Positions 17,124 to 56,700 of a stretch of 64,000 nt of DNA are shown here, one piece after another. The notes under the pieces were generated by a model that saw nothing but the letters and a program-made list of their open reading frames with translations, was not told where the DNA came from and made no database searches. The DNA lies in assembly GCF_032854445.1 (NCBI RefSeq), contig NC_088299.1, positions 7,108,324 to 7,172,323 on the forward strand. The letters are read 5' to 3'. This DNA comes from Liolophura sinensis (taxonomy: Eukaryota; Mollusca; Polyplacophora; Chitonida; Chitonidae). Every line of letters begins with the position of its first letter. The first letter of the stretch is position 1. Made by a program: the position numbers and the translations under genes.

Positions 17124-18461
17124 TCAGCACATATCCAGGAAACATTCAACACATAGAATCAGAACCGGAATAGTCAGTCGTTGATCCGGATTATCAAGCA
17201 TCAGCTGGGATCCTAAAAACTCTTGATCGAGTCACACCTAAGGTTTTAAAAGAGGAAGTTGTAACTTCCTCGCTTGACGTTCAGCATGAAGGGGATAGTG
17301 CAACTACAGGTTGACCCATATCAGTATAATGGCTCGGGCGGGGCGGCTTACTTGCCTTCGGTAAGTCGTCTCAGTGAAGCAGCACTAAATAAAAGAGCGG
17401 TGGAAATCCGTCCTGCAACAAGGAGGCACATTACATGTACATGCACCCTAAGAATTCCTTCGTCGTCATATGACTGAAAAATTGTTGAGTACGACGTTAA
17501 ACCCCAAGCACTCACTCACTCCTAAAATCTCCAGTTTAAGCGGATCGGCATTCTCCGCAACTGTTCGTAAGACGTACTCGAAGCTGTACAGGTCTGACTT
17601 GACACTAGGTGGCGCTTGATAAACAACTTCCTGGGCAATGTGATGACGGTCCGCCATGTCGGCCGGATCCACGGTGCCGGTGTAGCTAGAGTTATACGTC
17701 GCCATACCCATGTCCACGAATTTCACCTTGAGGCGGTCGTTGCTCTCATCCAGAAGGATGTTGTCAAACTCTTTGTCGTTCAGAAGGACACCTTTCTTGT
17801 GAATTTTCTGAAGGCCCTTTGCCCCTTGTATGGCAAACTGCAGCCATGTCTTTTTCTCTCCGCCTCTAAGCATCAGGCCCTCCACGGTTGTTCCCTGACC
17901 AACATATTCCTTGACCAGAATAGGATCGCTGCTCCTCCTTGCCATGTTGATTAGCCCGTGGACCTTGGGTACCGCACCTGTGACCTGCAGGTACCGTTGT
18001 GTCTTAACCTCTCTCTCAATTTCTTCCACGGACGCACGGTTAGGTTTGAAAAACTCAGCAGCGATGTCTGTCGTCTGCTCTTCTTGCACAAGTTTCCCGC
18101 GTTGGAAGTATCCATACCCGCCCTCGCCCAGGATGCCACAAGCTCCATCGTCTCGGTACTCCAAGTCCAGGTCGGTGCGGGAAATATTGGGGATGATCAC
18201 ACCACTTACAGATGAGGGCTGTGTCTGCGTGGTGCTGGACTCCGAATGGACTATCTGCTCTGGACGCTTGGGGTTCGTTTGCGTGTGGCCATGGGCGTTT
18301 TTGCTTTTGACTTCCTTTTCCGTAGAGAGATCGAAGGGCAACAACTGTGGTTTCCTCTCAGGCACAGGTGAAGTTACTGGTTGTTGACTTGAACCCTCGT
18401 CCCCATTGTATGGCGAGGCGTTGTCTCTGTCAGTTTGGTGTACAAACAATTGCCGAATCAC
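17124..18461 (-). pseudogene. Kinase-like ORF split by a SINE
   Basis: An open frame runs on the minus strand from a stop near 18506 down to 17466. The first ~100 residues are low-complexity (Ser/Thr/Pro/Gln). A protein-kinase fold follows: a glycine loop LGEGGYG (residues 111-117 counted from 18461), IAAEFFKP where VAVK is expected (Lys replaced by Glu), LNDKEFDNILL in place of HRDLKxxN (catalytic Asp and Asn kept, Lys lost), DMG for DFG, and SDLYSFEYVL. There is no in-frame ATG before the kinase domain; 18461 is only a GTG codon. The frame enters a SINE at 17519. Beyond the SINE the kinase C-lobe resumes in frame (GSQLMLDNPDQRLTIP) to a stop at 17124-17126. It is a pseudokinase-type remnant or a broken gene copy; partners unknown. 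Confidence 0.75.
17219..17519 (+). mobile_element. Second SINE-like family, copy 2, inside kinase ORF
   Basis: The body includes TTGTAACTTCCTCGCTTGAC, the 3' part TCGTCGTCATATGACTG, and a tail AAATTGTTGAGTACGACGTT ending in (CACT)n. An 8-bp direct repeat, TCCTAAAA, flanks it at 17211-17218 and 17520-17527, as expected of a target-site duplication. Removing one duplicate and the element rejoins the kinase frame, which dates the insertion after the coding sequence arose. Confidence 0.8.
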
Positions 18462-18504
18462 AAGTCTTTTGGGCTCCGCCGGGCGATACGTCGAATCATT
18501 TATT

Positions 18505-26515: not shown

Positions 26516-26998
26516 GACTCTGACAGACCTGTATTTAGCCAAGCTCTCTCAAAACTAAAACATGACAATTCTTTATTTCGCACAGGTCTCTCTGCACCAA
26601 AACATGGTAGTTCTATATGTGACCAAGGACTCTCAGCACTAAAACATGATAGTTCCTTATATGGCACAGGTCTCTATGCACCAGAACGTGATAGTTCCTT
26701 ATCTGGCATAGGTCTCTCTGCACCAAAACATGACAGTACTGTAAGTGGTCAACTAAAACATGACAGTTCCTTATCTGACCATGTCACTCAGCTCCAAAAC
26801 ATGATAGTTCCTTATCTGGCAAAGGTCACTCATCACTAGAGGATGACAGTTCCTCACCTGGCCAAGGTCACTCAGCGCTAAAACATGATAGTTCCTTATC
26901 TGGCAAAGGTCACTCAGCACTAGAGGATGCCAGTTCCTCACCTGGCCAAGGTCACTCAGGGTTAAAACATGACATTTCCTTATCTGGCCAAAGTCATA
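26516..26998. repeat. Degenerate ~40-bp array (left copy)
   Basis: About a dozen diverged units of CTAAAACATGATAGTTCCTT with ATCTGGCAAAGGTCACTCAG. Part lies in an open frame (26282-26839) with repeats of the type GLSAPKHDSSLSG. That frame stops inside the array and has no other gene-like property. Confidence 0.85.
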
Positions 26999-27175
26999 CT
27001 TATTACATCTATGCCTTTATCTAAAATTTGTTTCAGAAGTATTTGGTGTTACTACAGTAAGAACATGCTCATGAGTGTGAACAAAGTTGACTGACAATGA
27101 CTCTTGACTAGTGTGAGATTTGCGGATCAAGCACATACATTTACACTACTATATAGATGGACTTTAGGGACTCGG

Positions 27176-28030
27176 GTTAACAAACTGTGTACATGTATAA
27201 AAGCCCTTCAGTGCTGTCTCTGGCTCCAGATTCAGCATTGTAGGACCATGTTAACAAACTGTGTACATGTGTAAAAGCCCTTCAGTGCTGTCTCTGGCTC
27301 CAGATTCAGCATTGTAGGACCATGTTAACAAACTGTGTACATGTGTAAAAACCCTTCAGTGCTGTCTCTGGATCCAGATTCAGCATTGTAGGACCATGTT
27401 AACAAACTGTGTACATGTATAAAAGCCCTTCAGTGCTGTCTCTGGCTCCAGATTCAGCATTGTAGGACCATGTTAACAAACTGTGTACATGTGTAAAAGC
27501 CCTTCAGTGCTGTCTCTGGCTCCAGATTCAGTTTTGTGGAACCATGTTAACAAACTGTGTACATGTATAAAAGCCCTTCAGTGCTGTCTCTGGCTCCAGA
27601 TTCAGCATTGTAGGACCATGTTAACAAACTGTGTACATGTATAAAAGCCCTTCAGTGCTGTCTCTGGCTCCAGATTCAGCATTGTAGGACCATGTTAACA
27701 AACTGTGTACATGTATAAAAGCCCTTCAGTGCTGTCTCTGGCTCCAGATTCAGTTTTGTGGAACCATGTTAACAAACTGTGTACATGTATAAAAGCCCTT
27801 CAGTGCTGTCTCTGGCTCCAGATTCAGTTTTGTGGAACCATGTTAACAAACTGTGTACATGTATAAAAGCCCTTCAGTGCTGTCTCTGGCTCCAGATTCA
27901 GCATTGCAGGACCATGTTAACAAACTGTGTACATGTATAAAAGCCCTTCAGTGCTGTCTCTGGCTCCAGATTCAGTTTTGTGGAACCATGTTAACAAACT
28001 GTGTACATGTGTAAAAACCCTTCAGTGCAG
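27176..28030. repeat. 74-bp minisatellite (left copy)
   Basis: About 11.5 copies of a 74-bp unit beginning GTTAACAAACTGTGTACATG, then TATAAAAGCCCTTCAGTGCT, and a choice of GCATTGTAGGACC or TTTTGTGGAACC near the end. The order of variant units is the same in the right copy. Confidence 0.95.
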
Positions 28031-33330: not shown

Positions 33331-33813
33331 GACTCTGACAGACCTGTATTTAGCCAAGCTCTCTCAAAACTAAAACATGACAATTCTTTATTTCGAACAG
33401 GTCTCTCTGCACCAAAACATGGTAGTTCTATATGTGACCAAGGACTCTCAGCACTAAAACATGATAGTTCCTTATATGGCACAGGTCTCTATGCACCAGA
33501 ACGTGATAGTTCCTTATCTGGCATAGGTCTCTCTGCACCAAAACATGACAGTACTGTAAGTGGTCAACTAAAACATGACAGTTCCTTATCTGACCATGTC
33601 ACTCAGCTCCAAAACATGATAGTTCCTTATCTGGCAAAGGTCACTCATCACTAGAGGATGACAGTTCCTCACCTGGCCAAGGTCACTCAGCGCTAAAACA
33701 TGATAGTTCCTTATCTGGCAAAGGTCACTCAGCACTAGAGGATGCCAGTTCCTCACCTGGCCAAGGTCACTCAGGGTTAAAACATGACATTTCCTTATCT
33801 GGCCAAAGTCATA
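33331..33813. repeat. Degenerate ~40-bp array (right copy)
   Basis: Counterpart of 26516-26998, nearly base-identical, including the open frame 33097-33654. Confidence 0.85.
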
Positions 33814-33990
33814 CTTATTACATCTATGCCTTTATCTAAAATTTGTTTCAGAAGTATTTGGTGTTACTACAGTAAGAACATGCTCATGAGTGTGAACAAA
33901 GTTGACTGACAATGACTCTTGACTAGTGTGAGATTTGCGGATCAAGCACATACATTTACACTACTATATAGATGGACTTTAGGGACTCGG

Positions 33991-34845
33991 GTTAACAAAC
34001 TGTGTACATGTATAAAAGCCCTTCAGTGCTGTCTCTGGCTCCAGATTCAGCATTGTAGGACCATGTTAACAAACTGTGTACATGTGTAAAAGCCCTTCAG
34101 TGCTGTCTCTGGCTCCAGATTCAGCATTGTAGGACCATGTTAACAAACTGTGTACATGTGTAAAAACCCTTCAGTGCTGTCTCTGGATCCAGATTCAGCA
34201 TTGTAGGACCATGTTAACAAACTGTGTACATGTATAAAAGCCCTTCAGTGCTGTCTCTGGCTCCAGATTCAGCATTGTAGGACCATGTTAACAAACTGTG
34301 TACATGTGTAAAAGCCCTTCAGTGCTGTCTCTGGCTCCAGATTCAGTTTTGTGGAACCATGTTAACAAACTGTGTACATGTATAAAAGCCCTTCAGTGCT
34401 GTCTCTGGCTCCAGATTCAGCATTGTAGGACCATGTTAACAAACTGTGTACATGTATAAAAGCCCTTCAGTGCTGTCTCTGGCTCCAGATTCAGCATTGT
34501 AGGACCATGTTAACAAACTGTGTACATGTATAAAAGCCCTTCAGTGCTGTCTCTGGCTCCAGATTCAGTTTTGTGGAACCATGTTAACAAACTGTGTACA
34601 TGTATAAAAGCCCTTCAGTGCTGTCTCTGGCTCCAGATTCAGTTTTGTGGAACCATGTTAACAAACTGTGTACATGTATAAAAGCCCTTCAGTGCTGTCT
34701 CTGGCTCCAGATTCAGCATTGCAGGACCATGTTAACAAACTGTGTACATGTATAAAAGCCCTTCAGTGCTGTCTCTGGCTCCAGATTCAGTTTTGTGGAA
34801 CCATGTTAACAAACTGTGTACATGTGTAAAAACCCTTCAGTGCAG
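33991..34845. repeat. 74-bp minisatellite (right copy)
   Basis: Counterpart of 27176-28030 with the same number and order of variant units. Confidence 0.95.
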
Positions 34846-38700: not shown

Positions 38701-41700
38701 AAATGTACACAAGACAAGAGCTATCTTTCACTGTGAAAGTTTTCAAAATATTTTATGATCAATTCTAGTTACAAGCCATTCTGAGTTTGAACGTGATCTC
38801 CAACGAATTTTGTGTCAGGCCATCGGAAGAGACTTGTGAAAGCTGGCAACAACTTTTATGTTGCCACCAAGGCCAACACACAGTAAACGTTGGGGAATAT
38901 ACACTCGTGTTACTGCCGGTTGTGAAGAATATGTGTACTATTTTGAATGCTTTATAGAGTTATACTCATAGAAAAATAGAATGTACATACAAAATTTTAA
39001 CTTTATATGTGTCATAGTCGTAAGGAAGGTGTGTACAAAATTTAAATTATGCTTACTTGACTGAATTAGTCATAGCAGTAGATGTGTTCACGGTTGTATT
39101 TTATCTATTTATCTGATTCATGTTTTATGCTGTAGTGAAGAATATTTCACTCATACGACACCAGCAATCATTATGGTGGGAGGAAACCGGGCAGAGCTTT
39201 GTAAATGTACTGAACTACCTTGGTTAAATAAAGATATTATTATTTTTACATGTTCAGCTTAAAACATTTGGAAACATTCAGTTAAATTAAATTTACCGTA
39301 TCTTTACAGGCGTTAGCCAGCACAGGATCTTGCCTATAGTCCAGAGCTGCATCATGGATTACCTCCCTTATGTACATCTCACACTTTTGCGATAATCTCT
39401 GCAATGTAATAAAGTTACAGGTTTTAAACTGAGTAAGTGTTAATGAACGCGCAGCTCATCCAACTTTACAACCATTTGTGTGACTAATCATGCCAGAATT
39501 TATTTATTCATAGGACTGGTGTTTCACACCGCACTCAAGAATATTTGGCTTATAAGACAGTGGCCAGCATTATGGTGGGAAGAAACCCGCCACTACCCAC
39601 AGGTTACTGCCAGACCTTCCCAGGCAAGAGATAGAACTATATTACCTCCATTGCCAAATTACACAGACATGTACATGTACTCATTTGGCCTGATTCTGAG
39701 GGTCTACTGATCTTGGAAGAATGTTTTGAGCTTCATTTGAAAGGTTACAAGAGGATACTCTCCTGGAAAAATTTAAGTTCCAGCATCAAAGGTAATATTT
39801 TGTTTAAAATACTTGTTAATAAAAGCACTTTTCTGGGGAAATTTTTAGCGTAACAGCAGTAGGGTGGAAGTGTTTGCTCAAGTCTTGATTCAATGACATT
39901 TCTTGGCTAAATGATTTTGTCATTTTCTAACAGCAAAATGCTTGCTTCCTGTTTAGGCATAAACAGGGGAACTATTCCGCCTGACTTACATTAATCTTAA
40001 ACTGTTTTTTAAGACAGGCTATGACTTTGCCTTCCATCAAATCACTTGGTGTTTTGGCCAGAGCACTTCGACAAAACTTTGGTACATCTTGAGTGCAGGC
40101 TTCCTGAAGTTGTGGGTTGAGTCGATAATCTGCAAAACAAAATAGAAATCAAATGAGTAACATGTATACTATTTTGATTTAAAATTGTTATTAAACACCA
40201 CAGTCAAGAATTTTTCATTTATACTACGGCTATCAATTTTATGGGTAAAGGAAACTGAAGCGAATGGGGTAAACCACCGACTGTTCATAATTTAGTGAAT
40301 GTGATGTACAGATATGTACACCGCAATGGTGGAAGACAAGTGATCCTTAACGTACCTTAGACGGCGCAAATGACCTCACAAGTGATGTGGAGCGCTTATT
40401 ATAATTAAGGTCCAACCAAATTCAGGTTTGAACTTGCACTTCATGCATCATACAGACTGTGAAGCAAGCCCCACTAGATCACAGCCCATCCCCATCTTTA
40501 TCTTTGTCCTCTAATCTACTGACCTTTGTTTTGCATGATTTGTCGCTCTATGACAGTTCGATGACATCTCTGGTCAAAGTCGTCTTCTGTCTGATGTTGC
40601 TTCAGACAGTCCAGAATCTGATGAGGCTCCGAATGGGGGCAGTAAACCTGAGGGAAGAACACCACCAAACAACAGATGAGAACAGTAACCCTATGATAAT
40701 AACATGAAACAATTGATGAAAACAGTAAACCTATGATAACAACATGAAACAACTGATGAGAACAGAAAAACTACGATAACAAGATGAAACAACTGCTGAG
40801 AACAGAAAACCTATGATAGCAACATGAAACAACTGATGAGAACAGACAATCTATGACAACAACAGCACCAAACCCTTTGATGAGAACTGTAACCCTATTA
40901 ACACAGTACTACCAAACCTTTGATGAGAACAGAAAACCTATGAAACCAACAGCATCAAACAACAGATGAGAACAGTAAACCTATAAATACAGCAACATCA
41001 AACAACAGATAAGAATAGTAACTCTATGAACACAGCAACACCAAACATGAGATGAGAACAGCAAACTTATGAACACAGCAACACCAAATGTCAGATGAGA
41101 GCAGTAAACCTATGAACACAGCAACAGCAAACATCAGATGAGAACAGCAAACTTATGAACACAGCTACACCAAACATCAGATGAGAACAGTAAACCTATG
41201 ACAATAACAACATCAACCATCAGATGTGAACAGTAAACCTATAAACACAGCACCACCAAACATAAAATGAGAACAGTAAACCTATGACAACAACAAAGAT
41301 CAGATGAGAACAGTAAACCTATGACAACATCAAAGATCAGATGAGAACAGTAAACCTATGACAACATCAAAGATCAGATGAGAACAGTAAACCTATGACA
41401 ACAACAAGTACACAAAACATCGAACAAGAGCAATAAACCAATAACACCATCAACATCAAACAGATGAGAACAGTAAACCTATGACAGCAACAATATGAAA
41501 CAGATGAAAACAATAACCCTATAAATACAGTAACATCCAACAACAGTGATCAATCATTCACCATAGGCCAAACACAATAACCACGAATAAAAACAAAATT
41601 GCAACATGATTTTACAACTATGGAGAATTGATGCACAGTCTGAAATTTGTGTGAATTTACAGAACAGAATATATCAGAAAAATGTGCATATATTTAACCT

Positions 41701-47700: not shown

Positions 47701-50700
47701 CAGATTAACAGGAAAGTGCCATGATGTATTGGCCTTCTTTATTTTGGGAATAAGTTGAGGCAGCAGATACAATTGCTATTAAACATCGCTGATAGATTTC
47801 CTTATGTATTTATTTATTCAATAATTTATTTATTTATTTGATTGGAGTTCTATGGCCTACTGAAAAACATTTCAATTTGTGATATGCGACAGCGGCCAGC
47901 ATTGTGGTGGGAGGCCTAGCATTGCATGGGGAAAACCTATGACCATCTGCAAGTTGCTGGCAGACCTTCCCACTTAAATGTATGACCAGAGATGAAGTCA
48001 GCATGAGGATTTCTACATAGCCAGAGTGTAAAAAAACTAACCGGAGGGAGGGAGGAGGGGAGGGGGGGGTCGGTCGGACGGATTGTGGCCCAGTGGTTAG
48101 CGTGCTAGAGCTGCAGAATGACCCTGGAGGAGTCTCTAACCACTGCAACTCGTGAGTTCAAGTCCAGCTCATGTTGCCTTTCTCCCCAGCTTAATTCGAG
48201 GCACAGTCTCATAAGTTAAATATTCCTGAATACAGCATAATCATATAAGTGCTTAAATAATTTAATCTGCCAGCAACTTGGGGATGGCCGTGAGTTCCTC
48301 CTGTGCTCTGAAAGGTTTCCTCCCACCATAATGTTGGTCGCTGTCGTATGCGTGAAATATTCTACAGTGTGGCATAAAGCACCAATCAAATAAATAAATA
48401 AAAATACTCTTATCTCAAGTATCCAAAGAATTATGTCAACGGACACCTGAAACAAGTCTATTTACATGAGAACATTAGTGATGAGGCCAAGCCAAAACAA
48501 ACCCAGGTGTGTTGCATGGTTTCAAAAGGTCAAACTTGTCTAGTGGTGGCAGTGATGTGAGTGAGTGTAGGGAGCGGAACTTCACTATGTTGTGAAGAGT
48601 ATACTTATTGTTATTATTATACTAATACACAGCCCTGAGAGCTCTCCCTTGCTCTTGGACATTCTCAACATCTACAGCAACCAACATCAAGGAAGAAGGA
48701 ACTATTAATGTAACACAAAAGTTCCCATTGACGCTTTCTCAGTCGATACTTATTTATTTATTTGATTGGTGTTTAACGCCGTACTCAAGAATATTTCACT
48801 TATTTGACGGTGTCCAGCATTATGGTGGTCTTAAATAATACAATATTTAATTCTATTCTCAAGCCATGCTTTTAGTATCTGTTCTACGTTTCTCACAAAG
48901 ATGTTGCATAGGGAGAGGTTTCAAGTAAATATGAACTCACAAGTTGATGGTGTTCTATCCCAGCAGCACATTTGCCATTCATTTCAGCATGGTTTTTGTT
49001 CTCAATAAGACACTCCATGATGTCCTCCTCATCTTCCTCATCCAACATATCCTGTGAATGTAATCAGAACATCAAAGTAACATATCTGGTGAATGTAATC
49101 AAAACATCAAAGTAACATATCCTGTGAATGTAATCAGGACATCAAAGTAACATATCCTGTGAATGTAATCAAAACATCAAAGTAACATAACCCGTGAATG
49201 TAATCAAACATCAAAGTAACATATCCTGTGAAAGTAACCAGAACATCAAAGTAACATATCCTGTGAATGTAATCAAAACATCAAAGTAACATATCCTGTG
49301 AAAGTAATCAGAACATCAAAGTAACATATCCTGTGAATGTAATCAGAACATCAAAGTAACATATCTGGTAAATGTAATCATTTCTGTGAAAGAAATCATT
49401 AAATCAATTCTACATATCCTGTCAATGAAACCTATAAAATCAATCCAACATATTCTCTGAATGTAATCAAAACATCAAACTAAAACACTTTGTTAATGAA
49501 TCAAAAAATCAATTAGCAGACACAACAATTCCTCAGTGATTACGTAACAAATCTGGAGGACTTCATCTGGGTCGGTATTTTTTTTACCCAGACACTTTAG
49601 CCACTCATCAAATTTTGAAGCCAATACTATTTTTCTCAGCCATACTTTATCAGCAGCCATGACTTAATCTTTCTGACCAACTGATTGAATGGGAGCAGAA
49701 TCCATATGACTCTTGTAGGCCTTCATCCGTAATTCGTCTCATATGTCTTGGTGTACCGCAGACTTGGTTTCTACTAGCTATATCTGGAGTTTATTCCATG
49801 CTACATTTAGAACAATTGCCCTCAAAATAATGGGCCAATGTTTGGGAGCGTGTTTTTTTTTTTTTTCGTTTTTTTTTTTCAACAATCAACCAATCTGTGT
49901 AGGGTCCTACTAAAATGTAATTTCCTCCATCAGTTTGAATTTGTTAGAAAATAAATTCGTAAAATTAGTTCATTTAAATGGAGAAATATGATCAATACAT
50001 TGAAGTAACACAGTGTGACAGGAGAAAACCAGACTACGTACACATTTATGTGACTGAAAACATTTTGAAACATTTAATTTTATTTGTAGATTTCTGTCAA
50101 GTAAAATCGCCGTGTGACTGTGTTGTTGTTGTTTCGCCGAGACAAGGACGTTTGAAATAAGAGTAAATGAACGTTTTCACGAGAAAAAAAATTCACTAAC
50201 AAACCCAGAAAACTCTCATGCCTGAAAAGCACTAGGAGAACTTCGCCAGGTAGTTTTTGTTTAGCACTAGTACATTTCTTAAAGTAACTTTTTCTTTTCG
50301 CCAAAAACGTTCACACTTTTTCAAAGTTCATCGACGTTTCAAAAAACTGTTCTAAATTTGCGACAAAGGAGAGCACCAACAGAAGCCCTGAGAATGTGCA
50401 TCAATTTGGAATGAAAATGGTTCTGGACAACACCAGGTTCTGTTCCAAATTTGATTTGATGCTCACTGATTTCAATCCCTATTAAATTTATTCTGCTACC
50501 CTCACACCAGTGTAAATGGAAGAGTGAAACAGATAATTATTGTTTTGATCACTCACTGTTTTAGCACTTCAAACAGGGAAGAGATTGGAAAAAAAATAAA
50601 ATAGCCTCTCAAAGGGCTGTTTGGACACTCTCCGCTCCCAGCTTACACTGGTCTAAGTGGAAGAGTGAAATTATTGCTTCCATCGCTCACTGTTTTAGCA

Positions 50701-53700: not shown

Positions 53701-56700
53701 GTTAGTTTTAGTCTCAGTGTCTTACGTACATGCAAACAGCCCTGTCCTGTAGCCTAGGTCATGTCTAGTCACAAAGCACTGTACACACAAACACAAAATA
53801 GTCCTGCCTTAAAGTCTCTGGTCACAAAAGTACTGTATTTACACACACAATATTGTCTTTTCAGCTGCTTAAAGTCTCTGGCCACAAAGTAGCGTATTTC
53901 CACACAAACAACAATACAGTTATGTCACCTATTTGAAGTCTCTGGCCATAAAAGTACTGTATTTATGCACACAACACTAATGTCTTATCACCTACTTGAA
54001 GTCTTTGGCTACGAAGGACTGTATTTTTTACACATATAGAAAAATTCTGTTTTTCCACCTACTTGAAGTCTCTGGCCACAAAATACTGTATTTCCAGCAA
54101 ATGTTCAGCACACTCATCATCATTGTCCAGAATGTCTTTCTCCAGTTTCTCCATCAAACAACCCATTACTCTGAAATAAAAATTACATCCATTTAACAAG
54201 GCATTCAGACAACACTGGTAGCTCACCTGATTGAGTACTGCAAAATGTTCAAGTCAGGTGATCTGTTCCAATACTGACCTTTAAACCAAAATGCGGTAGA
54301 ATTATACTGTCATACACAGATATTATTCTCTAATAAGATCTTGTCATAAAATCAACAAGAAAGGCTGTTTACTGTATGCAAAAAGATTGTACAGCAGTGT
54401 CTTTGTATGTTATAGAATTCTGTATCGTTGCTATGGCAAAAAACGTCATTGTGGGCAGCGGTCTTTGATGTGCAATTTGCAAACTGCATTTGGCAATCCG
54501 TGTACTATGGGGGAGCAATCGCAACCCTGTGAATAGCTGAGCAAATGTTGAGCTATGATAGTAAAAAAAACTTCCTTATGGGAAGATCAAGCACCAACTC
54601 GCTAGAGTGACCCTTCATATACAAATCACTATCCACAACTGGCTATGATTGGCTTAGCAAATACTGACAACAGTCACTGCCACAAATATCAGTTAAATTT
54701 GGCAAAGTACATGAACATAAACCTTGTACAAAATAGTTTCCTGAAAACGTAGCTATAGAGACACTGTGCCAGAAACTGTAGCCCTGCATAGAGGGTTTCT
54801 AGAGAAGATTCTACTGAACATCAAACACAATCAAGTTTATATAACAGGTAAATGTTTACATTAAAAGTCTATCAATCGAAATGGACTACAAAACATTCAG
54901 AAAGCCACTAAAAGTTCAACCCTTCATCAGTAGGTCCTTAACCCTTCATTTAAGTACATGTATGTACATTACACACCACACTATACCTGAGACTAGAGAG
55001 CTAAAAAAACAAAAAAAAAAGTTAAACCGTGAATCCATGTATGAGAGCTCATTATACAGGAGCTGAAATAAAACAGGTTAACCGAACACCAACACAATTC
55101 CCCCTCTCACGCTACTTCGTACCGGCGAGGTAAAATTGTCAATAAAGCCTGCTTTTCTTTGTAGTGAGCATCTTTTTGACCCAATGGAAGTCCATACAAT
55201 GAGTAATTGATCACTTCACTTGTTTGAAAAGCGTTAGAAGTTAGTGTTTGTTAATGAATTTATAACTGTAACGCATGCTACATTAATAAATTACTTACAT
55301 GGGTTTTATATTCGATGGCACTTATTTTTGCGGAAATGTGTTTGCCTCCAAATCCGCGAATGTTAGTACCACGCGAATAAAAAGGCATTTACAGTATTTG
55401 CTTTCAGCACTACTAATTTCCGTCCTAAAAATGAGAAGAATTAGGGTATACATATTTGGTTGTGCTGTCTTTTCTATAAAATGAGTACCACTGACCTAGC
55501 ATCCCCTGCTGGTATGTCCCCACAGTATTTGATCACAGAATCACTACAAGCCTCTACCAGGGATTGGTCGATGCGAAAATCCTCTCCAACGTCAGCCTCC
55601 TTTAACAAATCCTCGATCTAGGAACACATAAGAAAAAAAACATGTTCTTCATCTAAGACCACATACAAAACACAAATCTCAATCTGACAACAGATACAAA
55701 GCACGCGTCCTAAACCTTCTTACAAATACAAAATGCAAATCCTCAACCTGATAACACAAAAAAATACATTTCCTAAATCTGCAAACAATCTGCAAACAAA
55801 TAATGTACAAAACACTTGTCCCAAATCTCCTTACACATACAAAACACAAGTCCTCAATCTGATGACAGAGACAAAAAATACATTTCCTAAATCTGCAAAC
55901 ACATACCAAACAAGTGTGCTCAAACAAAGAACATGAAAAATCTCTTCTTATAACATACACACCAAACAAGTCATCAACTAGCAAACAAAAACTAGGTCTC
56001 AATCAGACAAAAGCTCATTCCCTTCTGAAAGAAAGACAGAAAAAACATAGCTGAAAAAAAAACAAGGAAAGAACCACAGCTGTTTAACACAAATGATTAA
56101 ATGACTGAAAAAATCACACATGTTTAACGTTTCCATATTTGAATGTATGTATATAGGCTTGGGTTTAACATTGTACTTAACAATTTTTCAGTCATATGAC
56201 GATGAGGAGGCGGACCCTCTAACCATTAGGCCACAGAAGGGGTTGATTCAGTATTTAACACACTCACTGCTCTCATACAAATCTCTCCGAGTACATGGTC
56301 ATGTCTCTCGCCTGGTTTTCGCCGTGCCTTGCTCATCAGGCAGTGAAGAGTTTTACCTCCCGCCCCTAGGCCATCACAGAGGGTTCCGATCTCGTTTTGA
56401 CAATCCACAACAATTTCTGGGCTGATCTGGTAATCAGACATCAAACTTTTTCGCCACTCGGTCATCTCTGCTACACACTTACCAGCGACATGTCCACCTG
56501 AAAAGTATGACAGTAATGAGTGTTGACATATCATGCAGGCTTCATACAAGTATGCCCGGTAGATGTACTTAAATAAGTCAAAACTTAAAAGCAAAAACAA
56601 CAAACAATGTAATCTGACATATTCATGAATAGGGGAGAAAACACACCTAAACAACCACAGCCATTTCTTTCTGATGTGCTTGGTAATTCAACAAATCAAT

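Follow-up and report, generated by a model that had tools for sequence, protein, structure and literature searches.

Tandem repeats resembling minisatellites and lying across an exon-intron boundary, at one end of the exon or the other, have been described in amphioxus as mirages, in Adh3, the globins BflGb6 and BflGb9, PGBD5 and troponin C (PMC3087553, PMC3902484; Canestro 2002 cited therein). In the portions of these reports drawn on here, the units measure 10-72 or 150-160 bp and splicing was reported by RT-PCR to be regular (PMC3087553, PMC3902484). Human paralogues have been reported to carry variable internal tandem repeats, with units of ~30 bp, at exon-intron boundaries, and some Drosophila introns have been ascribed to tandem duplication (PMC2812944 and PMC2891723, respectively, each as far as the portion drawn on goes).

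The window analysed here, a stretch of 64,000 nucleotides of the chiton Liolophura sinensis (C5:7108324-7172323), contains an array of this kind at the acceptor of exon E10 of a GLG1-type gene. The unit of the E10 array spans the boundary and copies exon bases, the chiton genome has ladders at 3' as well as 5' splice sites, and the splice dinucleotide is present in many, not all, units, as is the AG or GT of the amphioxus mirages in the accounts cited above. Those accounts also describe end units that escape homogenisation, and at E10, the ladder for which this was looked at, the outermost copies have diverged while the inner units are near-identical. The chiton case, with unit lengths of 35 to 109 bp, differs from amphioxus, so far as the latter is described there, in that the organism is a mollusc, several ladders lie in one gene, the frequency is that of a sample of junctions (8 of 228), and the ladders are known from DNA alone. 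The human repeats are, as in the chiton, minisatellites at exon-intron boundaries, but they reportedly give rise to new introns and to alternative splicing in recent duplicates, whereas the chiton ladders lie inside existing introns (PMC2812944, in part). Intron gain from AG/GT proto-splice sites, as outlined in the sections drawn on, shares with our locus the copying of splice-site sequence by tandem duplication (PMC2891723; also PMC3087553), but the chiton ladders have formed no new intron and are long arrays within an existing one. NAGNAG tandem acceptors also place several possible acceptors in series; the E10 copies differ from that description in being ~35 nt apart, in carrying exon sequence and in producing stops rather than one-codon changes (PMC3250501, in part). 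No such ladder in a mollusc was found in the literature titles and abstract openings searched, among which few subscription papers were covered, and boundary ladders are apparently new for molluscs.

The GLG1-type gene lies on the minus strand of the window and was recognised by profile matches to Cys_rich_FGFR repeats; the family has 12 matches in the genome searched (609,464,459 bases in 632 contigs), all of them within this gene and an inverted paralogue. These repeats bear out the gene assignment made in the initial annotation, and beyond the level of the Pfam family the name GLG1 is one that we presume. Our model comprises 22 exons (E1-E23 without E21) from 61986 to 35578 on the minus strand, joined in phase and open through the last codon (1000 positions including the stop), and it ends in a C-terminal membrane segment and a short tail; the first exon of the gene lies outside the window. 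The exon that adjoins the ladder has the acceptor ...ttcacag/GATATG and the donor ACTT/gtgagt, the slash marking the boundary, and is placed as follows.

48941..49051, minus strand: GLG1 exon E10, 111 nt, phase 0, adjoining the ladder, from the in-phase gene model

Other parts of the window and of the genome yielded observations in their own right. On the minus strand of the window, positions 17469-18503 hold an open frame of 345 codons with, on visual inspection, a putative resemblance to kinases. Two arrays, one with 42/84-bp and one with 74-bp units (11.5 copies), occur as a pair twice, at 26532-28028 and 33347-34843, 6,815 bases apart and with equal copy numbers, and probably reflect a recent tandem duplication. 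Contig C99 carries seven COX1 matches ~15.5 kb apart and probably represents several head-to-tail copies of the mitochondrial genome joined in the assembly, and C8:37880506-37891931 is a haemocyanin cluster with eight matches to PF14830 (mollusc-type), the only ones among the matches listed.

The E10 ladder consists of the following elements.

49044..49380, minus strand: 35-bp x 9.7 array, TRF score 569, reaching 8 nt inside E10
49052..49058, minus strand: real E10 acceptor TTCACAG, weight-matrix score 8.75
49116..49128, minus strand: exact copy TTCACAG/GATATG, 70 nt upstream
49151..49163, minus strand: exact copy TTCACAG/GATATG, 105 nt upstream
49220..49232, minus strand: exact copy TTCACAG/GATATG, 174 nt upstream, score 12.44, above the real site
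49255..49267, minus strand: exact copy TTCACAG/GATATG, 209 nt upstream
49290..49302, minus strand: exact copy TTCACAG/GATATG, 244 nt upstream
49325..49337, minus strand: exact copy TTCACAG/GATATG, 279 nt upstream, the last 20 intron-side bases equal to those of the real site
49366..49530, minus strand: older diverged copies, with an 83% match at 49443-49512; the outermost retains more exon sequence (ATATGTTGGAT)

The array copies the acceptor together with exon bases, in register, as the initial annotation had it, and the real acceptor is its end unit, the last on the minus strand and called the first in that annotation. Its count of six further exact junctions upstream is also right: TTCACAG/GATATG occurs seven times in the window without mismatch, as the real site and six upstream copies, and eight times with at most one mismatch, where 0.16 were expected and none of 100 shuffles reached eight. 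The 35-bp period holds, while the extent of 49049-49385 given earlier is replaced by the TRF boundaries, and the ladder is less uniform than had been described, since one unit has 34 nt, one lacks the AG (CACGG) and two read CACCAG, with the AG moved by one base. On the minus strand the inner units are near GATATGTTACTTTGATGTTYTGATTACATTCACAG, and the last one enters E10 as GATATGTTGGATGAGG.

The outermost copy, TTCAGAG/AATATGTTGGATTG, matches the first exon bases at 11 of 14 positions and reads GGAT, as the exon does, at a place where ACTT stands in the inner units. With the intron side included it matches at 20/24 and 22/24 positions in two layouts, where the best of 200 shuffles reached 19 and 18, respectively, and in a layout with 18 exon bases at only 16/24, which 5 of 100 shuffles reached. 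We read these matches as pointing to an array that was seeded with exon sequence and whose ends would have escaped homogenisation. Searched with up to three mismatches, the unit has 16 matches in the genome, eight here and eight in the paralogous intron, and the whole array as a query, in a DNA search that skips very common words, returned the same two introns only. An ordinary dispersed satellite is therefore rejected, as all 16 unit matches lie inside two GLG1 introns; the initial annotation had named the unit's occurrence elsewhere as an ordinary satellite as the finding that would speak against it, and no such occurrence was found outside the paralogous introns.

Splice-site strength was scored with an acceptor weight matrix built from 50 other acceptors, whose leave-one-out median is 10.16. 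The six exact copies score from 8.42 to 12.44, and two of them, at 10.8 and 12.44, lie clearly above the real E10 site. Copies that score like the real site or better are thus not told apart from it by local sequence, and the earlier description of several equivalent acceptors in series stands in this sense, that local strength does not separate them. The same annotation held that use of an upstream copy would shift the frame unless three units were skipped; this is not supported, as all 13 upstream sites tested, in frame or not, lead to a premature stop. These 13 come from 17 upstream AGs listed, the other four scoring no higher than -3.3. Behind each of the six exact copies the fifth codon is TGA (DMLL*), also at the offsets of 105, 174 and 279 nt, which are multiples of three, so that the frame is of no consequence here.

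Three further ladders were recognised in the same gene, one of them probable only; the approximate counts given for them were read by eye.

40663..41524, minus strand: E16 acceptor ladder, units of 37-43 bp, ~20 units, many with CATAG/GTTTACTG; exon 40524-40647
53808..54093, minus strand: E6 donor ladder, 63 bp x 4.5, ~30 exon nt copied; exon 54063-54170
55640..55913, minus strand: E5 degenerate acceptor ladder, probable only, ~five copies of CAG/ATTGAGGATTTG; exon 55496-55617

At E16, 17 of the 18 upstream sites tested (of 30 listed) lead to a stop, and the remaining one, at 40770, keeps the frame open across its 123 extra nt and adds 41 residues. All six upstream sites tested at E5 (of 23 listed) stop, as do at once the four further copies of the E6 donor, only one of which keeps the GT. 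The E5 case is borderline and the ladder there probable: its junction copies were reached in 1 of 200 shuffles in one layout and in 49 of 100 in another, with P 0.055 in a separate test. Tandem arrays make up 27% of the GLG1 intron sequence, and an origin of the other arrays from exons found no support; ACTGGATCAC occurs in both the 86-bp array and E7 (P 0.03), and CAGATGATGC in both a two-copy array and E2 (P 0.005), and neither array is claimed as exon-derived.

The sequence just inside the exon does set the real E10 site apart from its exact copies. From 8 to 48 nt downstream of the real site, purines make up 68% and there are five GAR words, against 38-40% and none behind the six exact copies, while an older copy has 48% and two GAR words. 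The contrast is weaker at E16 (42% versus 30-42%) and at E5 (55% versus 35-52%).

Junctions were surveyed by comparing the 24 nt across each with its own intron, with dinucleotide shuffles as the null. Ladders were found at 8 of 228 junctions tested, seven clear and one, E5, probable, and they comprise three acceptors (that of E5 among them) and five donors. Among 42 GLG1 junctions the test picked out the E6 donor (22/24) and the E10 and E16 acceptors, and weakly the E5 acceptor. There were no ladders at 12 further GLG1 junctions outside the homogenised part or at the 60 junctions of a clathrin heavy chain gene; chaperonin (PF00118) exons had donor ladders at 3 of 72 junctions and proteasome (PF00227) exons a ladder at 1 of 42.

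C1:72038329: chaperonin-type donor ladder, 109-bp unit
C8:53405971: chaperonin-type donor ladder, 66/88-bp unit
C8:53407400: chaperonin-type donor ladder, ~60-bp unit, in a match with stops inside
C13:7541783: proteasome-type donor ladder, 80-bp unit

At C1:72038329 a ~90-nt exon end with its donor is repeated six more times, three of the repeats having an equal donor score. The ladder at C8:53405971 has 10 further donor copies, equal in score to the real one, over 748 nt, and its first six 66-nt units read open as in-frame inserts of 22 residues. The real donor at C13:7541783 scores 7.13 and is weaker than two of its copies (9.78 and 10.17). With so many sites in acceptor and donor ladders locally equal to the real one, context must decide between them.

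The chaperonin and proteasome boundaries are weight-matrix predictions. For PF00118, 36 of 50 matches were used; three long single-frame matches, two outside the examined stretches and nine with internal stops were dropped, and four with internal stops were kept, one of which is the counted ladder at C8:53407400. All 21 PF00227 matches were used, trimmed at stops. Junctions that few shuffles equalled, with no array or with a doubtful boundary, were excluded from the eight. These were the GLG1 E11 acceptor (0/200 shuffles) and E7 donor (1/200), each with no array or a doubtful boundary; the clathrin C21 donor (0/200 in one layout), where the array begins 45 bases on and the exon is not copied; the chaperonin acceptor at C1:56787651 (0/100), which has a boundary score of -5.5 and the look of a SINE tail; the chaperonin donor at C11:27803494 (0/100), with one copy; and the proteasome donor at C13:17404625 (1/100), again with no array or a doubtful boundary. 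The initial annotation had called a minisatellite on a splice site unusual, which it is not in this genome at 8 of 228 junctions, and the amphioxus mirages and human boundary repeats precede it.

The GLG1 paralogue lies on the same contig, inverted and head to head with the window gene. The pair occupies positions 38314-61990 of the window and C5:7190719-7214177, with a middle part of ~23 kb that is nearly identical, and the longest alignment of the two loci has 97.5% identity. Introns E1-E18 diverge by 0-4.6%, those after E18 by 10.9-48.5% and are hardly alignable, and the first exons are strongly different. On the simplest reading, the two are old duplicates, and gene conversion across the inverted repeat has prevented their middle parts from diverging. 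The E10 ladder of the paralogue differs from that of the window at 2 positions in 430 nt and, because gene conversion would have kept it similar, is not independent evidence. Unit numbers in the two paralogues are 9.7 / 9.7 for E10, 4.5 / 4.5 for the 63-bp array of E6 and 19.0 / 19.0 for the 86-bp array; they are 19.8 / 20.3 for the E16 array (3.8 / 2.8 in its 37-bp part), 16.2 / 14.2 for a 98-bp array and 34.5 / 35.5 for a 29-bp array. A genome search for a retrocopy joining E9 to E10, as a trace of the splice, found none.

Several explanations of the E10 ladder have to be weighed against each other. That it is an assembly artefact, or the product of two joined haplotypes, could be argued from the 14x coverage and the 8.3-kb average HiFi read length of the assembly (PMC11068029, in the portion drawn on) and from the second, inverted copy of the locus at high identity. 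We regard this as very improbable, as the 337-bp array fits inside one read and is present in both paralogues with so few differences. The paralogues, whose first exons differ and whose 3' introns can hardly be aligned, are two genes, and the inverted copy was rejected as a second haplotype. An ordinary minisatellite that overlaps the exon by chance, in a genome so full of arrays that some must touch exons, is a more serious alternative, though an unlikely one. Arrays fill more than a quarter of the GLG1 introns, and occasional contact with an exon is therefore expected; with founders placed at random, 0.93 junction-straddling arrays are expected in GLG1. Against this, four were seen (P 0.009), and the E10 unit occurs only in the two GLG1 introns. 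For GLG1 and clathrin together 1.24 were expected and four seen (P 0.029), for all four samples, with arrays of at least three copies, 1.46 and eight (P 0.00014, or 0.0008 with the seven clear cases only), and without GLG1 0.84 and four (P 0.011), in a small sample whose array lists were typed and merged by hand, in which only known exons could count and E5 was entered as a 56-bp array although its TRF copy number is below three. The excess of ladders at junctions stands in this sample, and something beyond neutral chance may favour them there.

The suggestion of the initial annotation that the ladder may regulate splicing efficiency is unproven. A regulatory device, in which poison acceptors tuned by unit number or splicing factors would send part of the GLG1 mRNA to decay, would fit the premature stop at every upstream E10 site tested, the two exact copies that outscore the real site, and the equal E10 unit number in the paralogues, where the 98-bp and 29-bp arrays differ; boundary repeats in human paralogues are, moreover, reported to alter splicing (PMC2812944, in part). 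The 86-bp and 63-bp arrays are, however, equally constant, and recent gene conversion would account for the equal number. A like architecture occurs in unrelated genes, at donors too, with some frames open, and the 451-nt RNA of the E10 ladder folds no better than its shuffles (z 0.54), so that we claim no structure that would hide sites. This explanation appears to us quite improbable, less so than an artefact.

We consider it probable, rather, that the E10 ladder is a mirage, which arose as a by-product when an exon edge was duplicated in tandem and which is tolerated, with the true site chosen by exon context. A founder duplication would have included the E10 acceptor along with 8 or more exon bases, probably ~12, and slippage or unequal exchange could then have spread further copies into the intron and made the inner ones alike. 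The frame would be kept since the copy that is spliced is the one still joined to the exon; we assume that E10 is correctly spliced. The true copy is probably picked by exon definition, through the purine-rich block just inside E10, which is absent behind the exact copies, together with the downstream donor, a suggestion that we base on the purine and GAR contrast. Occasional use of an upstream copy would add a stop codon and presumably lead to loss of the mRNA by nonsense-mediated decay. Such a fail-safe rule is not general, because the units at C8:53405971 read open, and the E16 site at 40770 also leaves the frame open. Tolerance is suggested by the ladders in housekeeping-type genes (chaperonin, proteasome), and selection most likely acts on the ladder itself little or not at all, although the reported change of splicing by human boundary repeats counts against neutrality as a general rule (PMC2812944, in part).

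Choice among locally identical splice sites is usually studied with engineered duplications. Natural ladders, such as the 11 donors with one core in a chaperonin-type gene, offer a set in which RNA could separate the contributions of exon definition, proximity and decay. It is possible, and we put it forward tentatively, that chitons have evolved or kept boundary minisatellites throughout the genome, as amphioxus seems to have done, at a few per cent of junctions and in core genes too, with exon edges as preferred starting points of duplication (~5x random in this sample). If this is true, introns would have a constant means of growing, and new splice sites a constant supply. Should the rate of 8 in 228 hold genome-wide, mirages would not be peculiar to lancelets, and duplication in tandem at exon edges would have to be considered generally as a candidate source of intron growth and of intron gain.
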